From assembly GCF_000190315.1 (NCBI RefSeq), contig NC_015151.1, positions 372,001 to 436,000 of the forward strand: 64,000 nucleotides of DNA, written 5' to 3'. The position numbers and the translations under genes were made by a program. The notes below the pieces were generated by a model that made no database searches, had not been told where the DNA came from, and saw only the letters and a program-made list of their open reading frames with translations. Positions within the stretch are counted from its first letter, which is position 1; each line of letters opens with the position of its first letter. This DNA comes from Vulcanisaeta moutnovskia 768-28. GTDB lineage: Archaea; Thermoproteota; Thermoprotei; Thermoproteales; Thermocladiaceae. Positions 5,703 to 40,142 of this stretch are shown one piece after another.

Positions 5703-6296
5703 ATGATAAGTGATTACATGAAGGGAGGCTTTAAGTTAGTGATTGAGAAAAATAGGTTAAAAGCCATAAGCGAGGCTTTAAATGCAATTGAGGAGGAGTT
5801 CGGTGTTAAGATAATTGTTGATAATGATAAGGGTGAGGTTACGATAACTCCAGGTAATAGTACGAGCTTTGATCAATTAATTAAGGCAAAGAACATAATT
5901 GAGGCGATATCATATGGTTTTGATTATAATGATGCCCAAAACCTAAGGAGTGATGATTATACCCTCGAAATACTAGATCTAAAGGATTATGTAGATAAGG
6001 ATAAGACTAATCACATTAGTAGGATTAAGGCTAGGATCATTGGCGAGGATGGTAGAGCCAAGAAAGTTCTGCAGGAGTTAACGGATACAAACATAGTGAT
6101 TGGTGATAGGTACATAGCAATACTTGGTCTTTATGAGAATGTGAAAATCGCTAGAGAGGCATTGGAAATGCTAATTCGCGGTAGACAACATGCCACGGTA
6201 TATAGGTGGATTCAGAATTGGAGAAGGGAGAGTAGATATAGGGAATTGATGGAGAGATTAAATAGGACTTATTATGAAGGTGAAGAAGAGGGTTGA
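5703..6296 (+). CDS. KH-domain protein of the Krr1/Dim2 (Pno1) family
   Basis: This 197-aa protein has two KH domains. The second (about residues 100-170) has the intact loop IIGEDGRAKK and the family ending RGRQHATVYRWIQ. The first (about 12-80) has lost the GxxG loop (KNRLKAISEAL), as discussed in the findings. Archaeal Dim2 binds the 3' end of 16S rRNA during small-subunit maturation and helps translation initiation factors; the role here is inferred from the family. Its last 25 nt overlap the end of the convergent eS1 ribosomal protein gene. An AGATTTTTAATCC element near 5667-5679 may be the promoter. Confidence 0.85.
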   Translation: MISDYMKGGFKLVIEKNRLKAISEALNAIEEEFGVKIIVDNDKGEVTITPGNSTSFDQLIKAKNIIEAISYGFDYNDAQNLRSDDYTLEILDLKDYVDKDKTNHISRIKARIIGEDGRAKKVLQELTDTNIVIGDRYIAILGLYENVKIAREALEMLIRGRQHATVYRWIQNWRRESRYRELMERLNRTYYEGEEEG

Positions 6297-6934
6297 GATA
6301 CCGTTGTTACTTCTGCAATTTTTACCTCTTCCGTTGGTTTAGTCTCACCACCCGTTGGATACCTTAAGACTTTTATCTTATAAACCTCAACCTTTCTCAG
6401 TGGATATATCCTCTTACCAACAGCAAATAGCTGATTACTAACATCACCATACACCGCAGCCTTAATAAAGCCATTAAAGTCCGCCTTGCTTGAAAGGTCA
6501 TTTAAGGCTTTCATAAACTCCTTCCTAATGGCTCTCTTTTGACTTGACTTACACCTAGTTGGTGTCATTGCTAATATTGTAATTCTTATTAATGCGTTAT
6601 CCGTGGTATTCACATCCTGAATTAATTGAATAAGACTTGAGCCTCTCCTGATTAGGCTCTTCACGTAATCTCTTGTTAATTCCATGCCCTTAAACCTCGT
6701 GTATGCCTTATCCCCCTCAATTCTATCTATTTGGAACCTTAACTTTATGTGTAAGTGACTGAGGTCCTTAGTTATATCAAATAATGTTACCTCTATAGTT
6801 CTGCCAATAAGCGAATCAGGTTCATTGGCAGGCACCTCCCCAATCTCTATGCCATTAAATAATGTAGGTGCATGTATAGTAAACCACTTCTTAATCATCC
6901 ACTTACCTGTCTTAGCCTGTTTTTGTTCTGACAC
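6272..6934 (-). CDS. rps3ae: 30S ribosomal protein eS1 (S3Ae)
   Basis: This archaeal/eukaryotic small-subunit protein is recognised by KWMIKKWFTIHAP, GRTIEVTLFDITKDLSH, YTRFKGMELTRDYVKSL and the C-terminal KRIYPLRKVEVYK. I chose the GTG at 6934 (protein beginning MSEQKQAKTGKW, 220 aa) because an AAATATAAAAAAG element at about 6965-6975 would start transcription near 6943; the longer frame from TTG at 6955 would begin upstream of that point. It lies directly downstream of pcc1 in the conserved archaeal order RecJ-like, pcc1, eS1. The C-terminal extension is rich in Thr and Ser. Confidence 0.93.
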   Translation of the reverse strand: MSEQKQAKTGKWMIKKWFTIHAPTLFNGIEIGEVPANEPDSLIGRTIEVTLFDITKDLSHLHIKLRFQIDRIEGDKAYTRFKGMELTRDYVKSLIRRGSSLIQLIQDVNTTDNALIRITILAMTPTRCKSSQKRAIRKEFMKALNDLSSKADFNGFIKAAVYGDVSNQLFAVGKRIYPLRKVEVYKIKVLRYPTGGETKPTEEVKIAEVTTVSQPSSSPS

Positions 6935-6973
6935 GTTGATCTTATCGATGATCAAAAACCCTTTTTTATATTT

Positions 6974-7237
6974 TTACCTTCGTAACTCATTGAGGGACTC
7001 CATTATGATCTTTAGATTCCTAATGAAGTCATCAATAGTATTATAAACACTTAGTAATTTCTCATTATCAACATGGTAAGTTAATTCATAGGTTAATTTA
7101 TCATCAATGCACTTAATAATTGATGTGAGACCTTGCGGTAACTCTCTCTCGTCAGGCAATAATGAGGAGATGGCTACTTGGCAATCCTCAATGGTTTTCA
7201 TTGCAATCTCTAAGGTAATTCTACCCCTAATTTTCAT
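6974..7237 (-). CDS. pcc1: KEOPS complex subunit Pcc1
   Basis: This 87-aa protein matches the small Pcc1 dimerisation subunit of KEOPS: an N-terminal beta-strand IRGRITLEI, a helix, LPQGLTSIIKCIDDKLTYELTY, and a C-terminal helix with YNTIDDFIRNLKIIMESL that corresponds to the usual N-[ST]-h-x-R-h segment. Pcc1 bridges two Kae1 units in t6A synthesis. The assignment is strengthened by position between the RecJ-like gene, whose end it overlaps by 11 nt, and the eS1 gene, an arrangement conserved in many archaea. Sequence identity in this family is always low. Confidence 0.8.
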   Translation of the reverse strand: MKIRGRITLEIAMKTIEDCQVAISSLLPDERELPQGLTSIIKCIDDKLTYELTYHVDNEKLLSVYNTIDDFIRNLKIIMESLNELRR

Positions 7238-8390
7238 TGATTAAACCCCTTATTACTATTGAGTAATTACTACGTTTAAATACTAAGTCTGCATCCGTAA
7301 CATCCTCATTAAACGCGCAGTTTATCTGTATTGGTTCATTCCCTATTGAGAATGAATGATTCTTATTTTCTACCTGGAAGTTTATGATTGAACATAACCT
7401 ATCAATTAATGTTAATGGTTGAGAACCCTGCCTTATCACTATGTTATCCTTATTTAATTGGTTCATAAGTTCATTAATTATGGATATGTACTTAGTAATT
7501 ATACCATTAATTTCCTTAATACTCTGTGGGTTGAGTATTGGATTCAATAAACCACCTGCGTATTCCCAAAGTACCAACTGGGACTCAACTGCCAATATTG
7601 ACTCTAGCACATCAATATCATTATTATTCCACTTTCTATGCATAAGTACAAGTTTATCAAGGTAATCACCCCTAAATCCAGCTCGAAGCATGAAATCGCT
7701 GATATACTTTAACAGTGTCATTACCTCATCCTCATTAAGCTCATTATACTGAACATCCGTCTTTTTAGCAATAGCCTTTACAAGGCTCCTAGCCTCGGAC
7801 TCATTACCAGTAATGCCAGGTATTACTGGCGAAAAGGCACGTGAGAGTGACACACTTAGCAATAATCTAAGTATGCCAGGTAATGCTGGATAATTAATGG
7901 GTTCAGTGGTTAGCCAACCGTTAAATGACGAAGCATTGTAATTGGGAATTACGGAAAATTCATAGATAATTGCTGTTTCTAAAAATCTTAGTGAATCCTG
8001 GCTTAACTCATTATTTAGCAACTGCCATATTAATTGTGGCATTGAGTCCGTAAACTCAAGATAGACATCAGTATTAACCCACTCAATACCTTCCTTGCCT
8101 ATCATAAATACCCTCTTACCATTAAGTGAGTTTATAAGTTCATTGAGTTTAACAACCGTGGGGGGATCAACAAATAAGATTGAGTTATACCTACTTATCA
8201 CATCCCTTCTTAGGTCATTTAATGATTCCAGTGTCAATAATGTTATATGCGTTAGTAACCCTCTTCTAAATCGTTCTATTAGAATTACTATTGCAGAAAA
8301 TAGGGAATTAATAAATGGTGGAGTTATTATGAGTAAATTATCACTTGAGTTTATTATTGAATCCAAGATGAATCTTCCCCTGGACTTCAC
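7227..8390 (-). CDS. Degenerate RecJ/Cdc45-like DHH-family protein
   Basis: This 387-aa protein carries no intact catalytic motif, but its layout and position match the archaeal RecJ-like (GAN/Cdc45-related) family. The N-terminus NLLIITPPFINSLFSAIVIL takes the place of the HxDxDG start of DHH enzymes; NSILFVDPP keeps one aspartate; the DHH block is missing (VFMIGKEG instead). The later SPVIPGITGNESEARSLV is close to the PxhPGhSGNE segment of archaeal RecJ-like proteins. The GTG start at 8390 sits 27 nt after a TATTAAAAGG element. In archaea these proteins accompany GINS and MCM in the replicative helicase complex. Family membership is inferred from motifs and synteny. Confidence 0.62.
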   Translation of the reverse strand: MKSRGRFILDSIINSSDNLLIITPPFINSLFSAIVILIERFRRGLLTHITLLTLESLNDLRRDVISRYNSILFVDPPTVVKLNELINSLNGKRVFMIGKEGIEWVNTDVYLEFTDSMPQLIWQLLNNELSQDSLRFLETAIIYEFSVIPNYNASSFNGWLTTEPINYPALPGILRLLLSVSLSRAFSPVIPGITGNESEARSLVKAIAKKTDVQYNELNEDEVMTLLKYISDFMLRAGFRGDYLDKLVLMHRKWNNNDIDVLESILAVESQLVLWEYAGGLLNPILNPQSIKEINGIITKYISIINELMNQLNKDNIVIRQGSQPLTLIDRLCSIINFQVENKNHSFSIGNEPIQINCAFNEDVTDADLVFKRSNYSIVIRGLINEN

Positions 8391-8463: not shown

Positions 8464-10182
8464 TCATATATAGACCGCTGTGTTCCTGGCAAGTTTTATC
8501 TTAAGCCAGTCCTTAACATCCATCTTAAAGCTATGCTCAATCTTATCCCTATGGAAGTTATTCATTGTACAGAAGGGTATTATTCTACCATCTGGTGCTG
8601 CATAGTGAATATCACACCTTTGGACCCTCTGTACATCGAAATTAAATGTGTCCATGAAGTGCATTATTCCAAGTCCAATAACATTAAACATTATCTGGCC
8701 TAGTGATTCATAGTCCTTCCTAGTTAGGAAGTTCGCAAGTATATCCCTAAAACCCTTGTGCTTAACGTACCTAAGCAGTTTGAGTGTTTCTACAGTGGCA
8801 ATGCCTCTCCAAACACCGCCCTTAATAGCCTTACTATGCAGATCCCAAGCAGTCTTCTCAAAGCCATCAACATCAACGATCTTCGTTATTGGAAGAATAT
8901 CCTTAGTGTCTTGGTCATAATAAATAAACGTTGATGCTCCACAGACAGGGTTATTGCTGAATATTGGCTTAGGACTGCCCGTCAATGCCTCAACGAGTTT
9001 TCCAATAGCCACCGGCCAATTAACTGGTCTCCAATCCCACTTACTTATTTTACCGCTGGTCTGTTCCTCAATGCCATTAATTACATCAGGTATTGTTATC
9101 CTGAATTGCCTAATTTCATCAGGGCTATACTCCTTGGCTCTACCTGCGAAGGCCACGGGCTGTATATTAATCCACCTGACGACATCCCTATTTTCAATTG
9201 CAAAATCTATTATCTTGCCCATGTCTCTATCGTTATAGTTCTTAGCCATTGTAACCACAAGAACTACGGACCTATGGCCAAGCTTCCTGGCATTCTCAAT
9301 AACCTTCTTCTTAACAGCCGCATACGCCTTTGGATCATATAGCCTATGTCTCCAAACACCCTGATTATTCGGATCTATTGTGTCGAATTGTAGGTATATC
9401 GTTGACATACCCGCATCTAATAGCTTCCTGTAATAATCAATATCATTAGCGATCCTTATGCCATTGGTATTGACCTCGATGTGGTCAAAGCCGAGGATCT
9501 TGGCCATCCTAATGATCTCTGGTAAGTCATTCCTGAGCGTTGGCTCGCCACCGCTAAACTGAATAGCATTTGGCGCCCAGGGCTTCTGAGCTCTAAGGGT
9601 CCTAAGCATATACTCGATCTGCTCGAGTGTTGGTTCGTATACATAACCAGCTGCGTAGGCATTGGCGAAGCACACGGGGCATTTCATGTTACACCTGTTT
9701 GTTACATCGATTATTGCAAGCACAGTATTTGTCTTATGAACAGGGCATAAGCCGCATCCCTGTGGACAACTACCTGCTGCCAAATAATAGTTAAGGTCTG
9801 TATTGGGATTTGCTGTGCCCTTACCAATGTATTCAGGGGCATCCCACTGGAGGAAGTAGTAATATAATTCAGCATCACCCCAGTATAGATCTCTGAAAGT
9901 TCCATGTTCTGGGCAGGTCTTCTTTAGCCATATTGCCCCATCCTCCTCGTAAACAGCCATTGGTATCTGCCTACTACAGACGGGGCATACGGACACTGAG
10001 ACCTTAATAACTCTCACATGATCTGGCAGACCGAATTGTCTCTTCCACATTTGCTGAAGTCTCTCATTCTCTAGGGCATTCCTATAATGCCTAGGTAACT
10101 TAAACCTGCTTAGGTCAACAAGTGGCTTCCTTGGCCTTTGTGCTTCAATAAGTTCGGTCTTTGCTGATACTACCTGAACCAT
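8464..10182 (-). CDS. tes: Radical SAM tetraether lipid synthase (Tes family)
   Basis: This 572-aa radical SAM protein has the full Tes layout: an N-terminal rubredoxin-like CPVC/CPEHG pair (about residues 68-95), CPQGCGLCPVHK near 140, the radical SAM motif CNMKCPVC near 165, the SAM-binding SGGEPT, and a late C-terminal CDIHYAAPDGRIIPFC. Tes couples the phytanyl chains of two archaeol lipids to make macrocyclic archaeol and GDGT tetraethers (characterised for the methanogen homologue MJ0619). It acts at the membrane on intact polar lipids. A leaderless start at 10182 is supported by a TATA element centred at 10207. The neighbouring TrmB-type regulator is divergent. Confidence 0.88.
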   Translation of the reverse strand: MVQVVSAKTELIEAQRPRKPLVDLSRFKLPRHYRNALENERLQQMWKRQFGLPDHVRVIKVSVSVCPVCSRQIPMAVYEEDGAIWLKKTCPEHGTFRDLYWGDAELYYYFLQWDAPEYIGKGTANPNTDLNYYLAAGSCPQGCGLCPVHKTNTVLAIIDVTNRCNMKCPVCFANAYAAGYVYEPTLEQIEYMLRTLRAQKPWAPNAIQFSGGEPTLRNDLPEIIRMAKILGFDHIEVNTNGIRIANDIDYYRKLLDAGMSTIYLQFDTIDPNNQGVWRHRLYDPKAYAAVKKKVIENARKLGHRSVVLVVTMAKNYNDRDMGKIIDFAIENRDVVRWINIQPVAFAGRAKEYSPDEIRQFRITIPDVINGIEEQTSGKISKWDWRPVNWPVAIGKLVEALTGSPKPIFSNNPVCGASTFIYYDQDTKDILPITKIVDVDGFEKTAWDLHSKAIKGGVWRGIATVETLKLLRYVKHKGFRDILANFLTRKDYESLGQIMFNVIGLGIMHFMDTFNFDVQRVQRCDIHYAAPDGRIIPFCTMNNFHRDKIEHSFKMDVKDWLKIKLARNTAVYI

Positions 10183-40040: not shown

Positions 40041-40142
40041 GCGGGGGTGCCCGAGCCTGGTCAAAGGGGGCGGACTCAAGATTATAAGTGAGATATCCGC
40101 TGGCGAAGGCCTGCGTGGGTTCGAATCCCACCCCCCGCACCA
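40041..40142 (+). tRNA. tRNA-Leu (CAA) with a 14-nt intron
   Basis: The sequence folds with acceptor GCGGGGG/CCCCCGC, D-stem CCC/GGG, anticodon stem GCGGA/TCCGC, loop CTCAAGA (anticodon CAA at 40077-40079), a long variable arm typical of Leu and Ser tRNAs, and T-arm GTGGG-TTCGAAT-CCCAC. The discriminator A and the CCA end are encoded (40139-40142). An intron interrupts the loop after position 37. Confidence 0.95.
40081..40094 (+). other. tRNA-Leu intron with bulge-helix-bulge splice sites
   Basis: Removing ATTATAAGTGAGAT restores the anticodon loop. CTCA (40075-40078) pairs with TGAG (40089-40092) as the 4-bp central helix, flanked by 3-nt bulges AGA (40079-40081) and ATA (40093-40095). Cutting after the second base of each bulge gives exactly this 14-nt intron between positions 37 and 38. 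Confidence 0.88.

Follow-up and report, generated by a model that had tools for sequence, protein, structure and literature searches.

A probable catalytically dead RecJ/Cdc45 orthologue in Vulcanisaeta moutnovskia and a candidate Cdc45 gene in Caldivirga

Introduction

Cdc45 activates the eukaryotic replicative helicase, and its descent from a nuclease is evident from its relatives in archaea. A divergent open reading frame located directly upstream of pcc1 in Vulcanisaeta moutnovskia raises the question of whether it is an inactivated member of this lineage and, if so, which parts of the ancestral protein it has kept. The notion of an inactivated RecJ/Cdc45 is in itself not new. The Thermoproteales case was published by Makarova, Koonin and Kelman in 2012, who described inactivated RecJ orthologues beside the genes of S15, S3 and Pcc1 and proposed them to be structural subunits of the CMG complex (PMC3307487). 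In the accessible text of the same survey, Caldivirga maquilingensis is the only archaeon without a detectable RecJ/Cdc45 (PMC3307487). Here we describe the gene of V. moutnovskia and the path that leads from it to a candidate for the gene reported missing in Caldivirga.

Genomes and profiles

The window, i.e., the whole stretch of DNA analyzed, comprises 64,000 nucleotides of V. moutnovskia 768-28 (contig NC_015151.1, positions 372,001 to 436,000), whose genome consists of one contig of 2,298,983 bp. The genera compared were Vulcanisaeta (g1), the genus Caldivirga (g2) and two further genera (g3 and g4) of the same family, f1, to which the window genome belongs; f2 and f3 are other families of the same order, and f2, judging from gene context, is presumably of the Pyrobaculum type. 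The g1 profile was built from nine Vulcanisaeta orthologues, profile A5 from g1, g3 and g4 (13 rows, none of them from g2) and profile A6 from five g2 sequences. Since the A2 profile already held a g2 sequence, its match in Caldivirga was possibly circular, and the search was repeated with A5. For the A3 profile seven of the eight loci were used, the frameshifted locus L071 being left out and L073 cut before its frameshift. The f2 profile included four of the 19 f2 genomes, namely those with a weak A2 match. Profile-profile comparison among the genera involved 25 proteins, leaving out the split or partial copies of genomes G003, G004, G006 and G020. The profile of intact RecJs has 21 rows, which are 20 loci plus the protein of genome G026, itself also one of the 20.

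Results

The locus and its annotation

The gene in question (7227..8390, minus strand) starts with GTG and encodes 387 amino acids. On the combined grounds of the list of open reading frames, NCBIfam matches, alignments, Foldseek and profile comparisons it is treated below as a catalytically dead RecJ/Cdc45 orthologue. Its end overlaps by 11 nt the start of pcc1, encoding a KEOPS subunit (6974..7237, minus strand; NCBIfam Pcc1, E 1.3e-11), after which comes the gene of the ribosomal protein eS1 (S3Ae; 6272..6955, minus strand; Pfam, E 5.8e-69). NCBIfam and Pfam thereby bear out the order of RecJ-like gene, pcc1 and eS1 that the first-pass annotation of the window had assumed. The upstream neighbour, encoding the tetraether lipid synthase Tes (8464..10182, minus strand; NCBIfam), is regarded as flank and as lying outside the system. 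Elsewhere in the window, a tRNA match at 40041-40139 (plus strand) is 99 nt long, as compared with 75 nt for the only other tRNA match, and possibly contains an intron.

For the 387-aa protein all Pfam and NCBIfam models stay below their curated cut-offs, and it has indeed escaped ordinary annotation, as had been claimed. The best curated match is NCBIfam SSO0295_fam (NF053566; E 8e-7, residues 170-240), which scores 28.3 bits, the cut-off being 350. It is accompanied by the NCBIfam archaeal RecJ (E 0.0022) and GAN (E 0.0085) models, these weak NCBIfam matches together spanning residues 170-249, and by Pfam DHH_CID (E 0.0085, residues 182-248). The models of GAN and active RecJ nucleases, NF053575 and NF053576, give 16.9 bits against a cut-off of 360 and 14.7 against 850, respectively, and the eukaryotic Cdc45 model PF02724 is absent among the Pfam matches at E<=1. 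Nearly all of the best weak matches are of the RecJ/Cdc45 type, the exception being the unrelated DUF1617 (Pfam, E 0.008), located elsewhere in the protein.

Homology to intact RecJs and the CMG-interacting domain

Profile comparison links the protein to the intact RecJs of the class. The g1 profile matches them at E 2.6e-12 over residues 16-329, i.e., over the DHH-like domain, the CMG-interacting domain (CID) and the stem, ending before DHHA1, and the g1+g3 profile does so at E 5.7e-16. The scores of 96.2 (g1) and 124.3 (g1+g3) are to be compared with maxima of 24.9 and 22.0, respectively, over 40 column-shuffled controls. The profile alignment stops at column 373 of 481, ahead of DHHA1. Searched against PDB sequences, A5 finds the RecJ of Pyrococcus (PfuRecJ, E 1.4e-5) and the GAN of Thermococcus (TkGAN, E 1.4e-3), with the CID as the best stretch, the next chain being unrelated (E 0.63).

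The CID (residues 182-248; 7647..7847, minus strand) is recognized by Pfam DHH_CID, by NCBIfam SSO0295_fam and by the family profile A5, and appears from these sequence comparisons to lie between the DHH domain and the helical stem. It is the segment best conserved outside the family, and the SPVIPGITGNE stretch, the survival of which had been noticed at first pass, is part of it (residues 187-197; 7800..7832, minus strand), corresponding in the profile alignment to the (I/L)PG(L/I)TGNE of intact RecJs.

Loss of the catalytic motifs

Motif I reads H(Y/F)DADG and the DHH motif is present in all 21 rows of the intact-RecJ profile. In the profile alignments, P24-P25-F26-I27-N28-S29 of the window protein falls on the HYDADG motif (8304..8321, minus strand), and G98-K99-E100 on DHH (8091..8099, minus strand), in agreement with the earlier description of HxDxDG replaced by TPPFINS and of a missing DHH block. 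The GGGH motif of DHHA1 is absent from the protein when aligned with intact RecJs; two of the 20 intact-RecJ loci (L090 and L092) likewise lack it or have it in altered form. The claim that all DHH motifs had been lost holds for HxDxDG, DHH and GGGH and fails for motif II, where D75 (8166..8168, minus strand) stands opposite the Asp of intact RecJs. This position, the only aligned ligand position at which an acid is seen to be retained, is occupied by Asp in seven and by Glu in two of the nine aligned Vulcanisaeta orthologues. Motif I has different remnants in the other genera: RRDPxC in four of the five g3 sequences, a FPSTYN-like stretch in g2 and APTTHD in g4, while in f2 it reads RRSVDA, as judged by eye.

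Selection and integrity of the frame

All 12 Vulcanisaeta genomes contain a match to the window protein, the most distant copy being 37% identical to it, and the frame is open in all nine aligned orthologues. The two pairs furthest from saturation give omega values of 0.16 (dS 0.35) and 0.096 (dS 0.92), the others being close to saturation. The gene is fast-evolving but under purifying selection. Two of the 12 genomes, both of them drafts (G003 and G004), have a frameshift that splits it (L071/L012 and L073/L006; Vulcanisaeta distributa JCM 11216 and V. sp. JCM 14467). The neighbouring tes is frameshifted in both as well, which suggests sequencing error.

Predicted fold

AlphaFold2 (eight sequences) gave a whole model with a mean pLDDT of 50, usable for residues 1-140 only, where pLDDT per ten-residue block is 55-86; for residues 144-344 it is below 50. 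The C-terminal half, modelled separately, was no better than the whole model (mean pLDDT 43). Because of this low confidence, the folds of the CID and of the C-terminal part are proposed from sequence only. The N-terminal domain (residues 1-146; 7953..8390, minus strand; AlphaFold2, with the VIA alignments mainly over this range) is predicted to have a DHH fold. The comparison with GAN and Cdc45 proposed at first pass turned out in favour of the assignment: all ten Foldseek matches in the PDB at E<=1e-3 are GAN, RecJ or Cdc45, the best being Thermococcus GAN (5ghr_A, E 1.4e-4) and Methanothermobacter RecJ-Cdc45, with Entamoeba CDC45 (6cc2, E 8e-4) close to them. In VIA, all 50 rows are DHH-fold proteins (Z 8.9-12.0). 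NrnA-type DHH phosphatases (Z 12.0) and Cdc45/RecJ (11.2, Entamoeba CDC45 also 11.2) are tied there by the rule of the tool, so the fold alone points to the superfamily and not to Cdc45 specifically.

Gene slot, distribution and lineage

The gene occupies a recurrent place in the order. All five g3 genomes have it after uS15, and in the three whose contig extends further eS1 is found a short way downstream; the g4 protein is encoded directly after uS15. The order in Vulcanisaeta is tes, the gene, pcc1 and eS1, uS15 not being adjacent. In one g4 genome, 76% complete (G017), the search matched neither the gene nor uS15 and eS1. Outside f1, the order-wide search with A2 produced weak matches in five genomes (E 0.008-0.08), each of them to the open reading frame right after uS15, and no match in the other 15 genomes. 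The loci of the Pyrobaculum type (f2) show the order uS15, the gene and a short open reading frame in four of four cases, the short frame being pcc1-like by blastp in three. The f2 proteins are of 354-360 aa, and the g1 and f2 profiles match over the CID only (E 6.9e-7, 34% identity).

As to recognizable RecJs, the archaeal RecJ model found nothing strong in the window genome, and RecJ exceeded the family cut-off in none of the 44 genomes of f1 and f2. The 21 genomes with RecJ over the cut-off, among the 81 of the class, are all outside these two families, and outside the order 34 of the 36 genomes match the RecJ model at E<1e-40. Within the order, the only f3 genome (G026; contamination 5%) encodes an intact RecJ of 491 aa with HYDADG, DHH and GGGHRDAAG (L062:880-2355, plus strand), which weakly matches Pfam CDC45 PF02724 (E 2.8e-5); the gene order here is uS15, RecJ, an open reading frame of 92 aa and eS1. 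A separate intact RecJ-like gene that could take over the role was not found in the window genome. Its sole Pfam DHH match is a 330-aa DHH/DHHA1 protein with an intact DHH (L001:1453-2445, plus strand); among NCBIfam models it best matches a Mn-dependent pyrophosphatase, and it also resembles NrnA.

In the MCM tree, built from a 323-residue stretch, f1 and f2 form a clade without f3 (support 97/99); this is a tree of one gene, and several of its deeper forks are weak. With f3 outside f1+f2, one inactivation on the stem of this clade is sufficient, and independent inactivation in f1 and f2, which we also considered, becomes unnecessary. Apart from this, the MCM matches of three genomes (L125 in G013, L126 in G026 and L127 in G064; open frames of 1068, 1194 and 1378 aa, respectively) are split by long in-frame stretches that look like inteins.

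A candidate gene in Caldivirga

In the genome G012 (a single contig of 2,077,567 bp), which we take to be C. maquilingensis IC-167, profile searches point to an orphan open reading frame of 378 aa as the candidate Cdc45/RecJ orthologue (G012:C1:1655171-1656307 = L048:6172-7308, minus strand). Neither Pfam nor NCBIfam matches this frame at E<=1, and it contains no recognizable catalytic or TGNE motif. A5, devoid of g2 rows, finds it at E 3.4e-16, and in each of the five g2 genomes the corresponding frame is the only one listed at E<=10, the best E values per genome being 1.2e-14 to 1.1e-16. In the reverse direction, the window gene is the best match of A6 in the window genome (E 1.4e-6). A6 matches at E<=1 in 22 of 45 genomes, five of which are the g2 genomes themselves; it has no match at this threshold in three of the 12 g1, one of the five g3 and one of the three g4 genomes, and its two f2 matches (E 0.05 and 0.19) are probably due to chance. 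Profile-profile comparison yields 2e-9 for g1-g2, 2.3e-15 for g2-g3 and 6.3e-29 for g2-g4. A direct link between Caldivirga and intact RecJs failed to appear: the g2, g4 and g2+g4 profiles match the latter at E 0.12, 0.25 and 0.34, and the score of g2+g4 does not exceed those of column-shuffled controls. The assignment of the Caldivirga gene is for this reason a chain through g1, g3 and g4.

In g2 the gene is outside the operon, yet it is kept in five genomes. In G012 uS15 is found at 627 kb, the candidate gene at 1,655 kb and eS1 at 1,831 kb. Such scattering would explain why the neighbourhood search of 2012 missed the gene (PMC3307487). A pcc1-like open reading frame is located about 3.5 kb from the gene in two of the five g2 genomes (L049 and L052), that of L049 not being recognized as Pcc1 by Pfam, and is absent from the stretches examined in the other three. 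Considering these data, we think it quite likely that the family of the window gene supplies the Cdc45 of C. maquilingensis, in the form of the 378-aa frame that would have moved away from the uS15/pcc1/eS1 neighbourhood. A Cdc45/RecJ gene of Caldivirga is not named in the accessible parts of PMC3307487, PMC3984812, PMC10470531, PMC3655853, PMC4429474, PMC7776575, PMC4390880 and PMC5484177 (open-access literature).

Discussion

The profiles, the gene slot, the predicted N-terminal fold and the lost motifs all support the initial view of a degenerate RecJ/Cdc45-like protein. We find it very probable that the window protein is an orthologue of archaeal GAN/RecJ and of eukaryotic Cdc45, built permanently into the replicative helicase as a subunit without enzymatic activity, its binding to MCM and GINS being suggested by homology. 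What it appears to have kept is the DHH-like domain, the CID and a part of the helical stem, with neither a nuclease active site nor a recognizable DHHA1. In this arrangement GINS would be the docking site of the DHH-like domain, and the N-terminal tier of MCM that of the CID; MCM would thereby be stimulated with no single-stranded DNA being cut. This binding and the helicase role are carried over from work on Sulfolobus, Thermococcus and eukaryotes: in eukaryotes, Cdc45 contacts GINS through its DHH domain and the N-terminal tier of MCM through its CID, and the binding of Gins51 by Thermococcus GAN follows the pattern of the Cdc45-GINS contact (PMC5484177). Putative partners are encoded in the window genome, where the one main MCM gene is immediately preceded by a Gins23-like gene (E 6.2e-15; 55.4 bits, below the curated cut-off of 120). 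A scaffold subunit of the CMG complex would be the simplest reading.

The overlap of 11 nt with pcc1, together with the fact that the gene stays beside pcc1 and eS1 in Vulcanisaeta although uS15 is no longer adjacent, could also mean that this RecJ derivative has left replication and now serves KEOPS (Pcc1) or ribosome assembly (eS1, KH-domain protein) along with its operon partners. We consider this improbable: GAN, a proven partner of GINS, has the same neighbourhood in other archaea (PMC3307487), the gene is kept outside the operon in five g2 genomes, and it is the MCM-contacting part, the CID (PMC5484177), that is best conserved outside the family.

Very improbable, in turn, is an active phosphoesterase whose metal site has been rebuilt. 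The acid found at the D75 position in all nine Vulcanisaeta sequences would fit such an enzyme, but the residues expected at the HxDxDG, DHH and GGGH motifs have been substituted or lost, differently in each genus, and no new conserved His/Asp cluster is seen by eye in the nine-row alignment. As for a decaying pseudogene, omega well below 1 and the open frame in nine of nine orthologues contradict it and make it hardly credible, whatever might be read into the extreme divergence (down to 37% identity within Vulcanisaeta) or into the frameshifts in two draft genomes, both of which have tes frameshifted too, suggesting sequencing error.

Returning to the reading of a structural helicase subunit, the window gene would add a case in which the nuclease site is lost and the part docking on the helicase persists. 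It would also serve as a stepping stone, from Vulcanisaeta via g3 and g4 to Caldivirga, toward the Cdc45 reported missing. Should the Caldivirga assignment be true, every archaeon of the 2012 survey would possess a CMG helicase that includes a Cdc45 subunit. The intact RecJ of G026 provides a close active comparator in the same order, and, if the above is correct, one order harbouring an intact RecJ along with variously eroded versions of motif I would represent a natural series bearing on what the nuclease of the helicase is for.

Comparison with known systems

The closest described counterpart is the inactivated RecJ of Thermoproteales, arCOG05692, which shares with the window protein the slot beside uS15, pcc1 and eS1 and the loss of the DHH active site (PMC3307487); the f2 proteins, judging from gene context and order, probably belong to it. 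Cdc45/RecJdbh of Sulfolobus (SSO0295) is also catalytically dead and is a component of a CMG-like complex by which MCM is stimulated (PMC7776575), whereas the window protein falls outside the corresponding equivalog family, NF053566 (28.3 bits against 350). With GAN of Thermococcus (PDB 5GHR, 5GHS and 5GHT) the window protein has in common the order of DHH domain and CID and the pcc1/eS1 neighbourhood, but the active site and DHHA1, both present in GAN, are not recognizable here. Eukaryotic Cdc45 combines a DHH fold devoid of nuclease activity with a CID and is a structural subunit of the helicase, as the window protein would be; as compared with it, the window protein is shorter, has no DHHA1-like domain recognizable by sequence and no Pfam CDC45 match.
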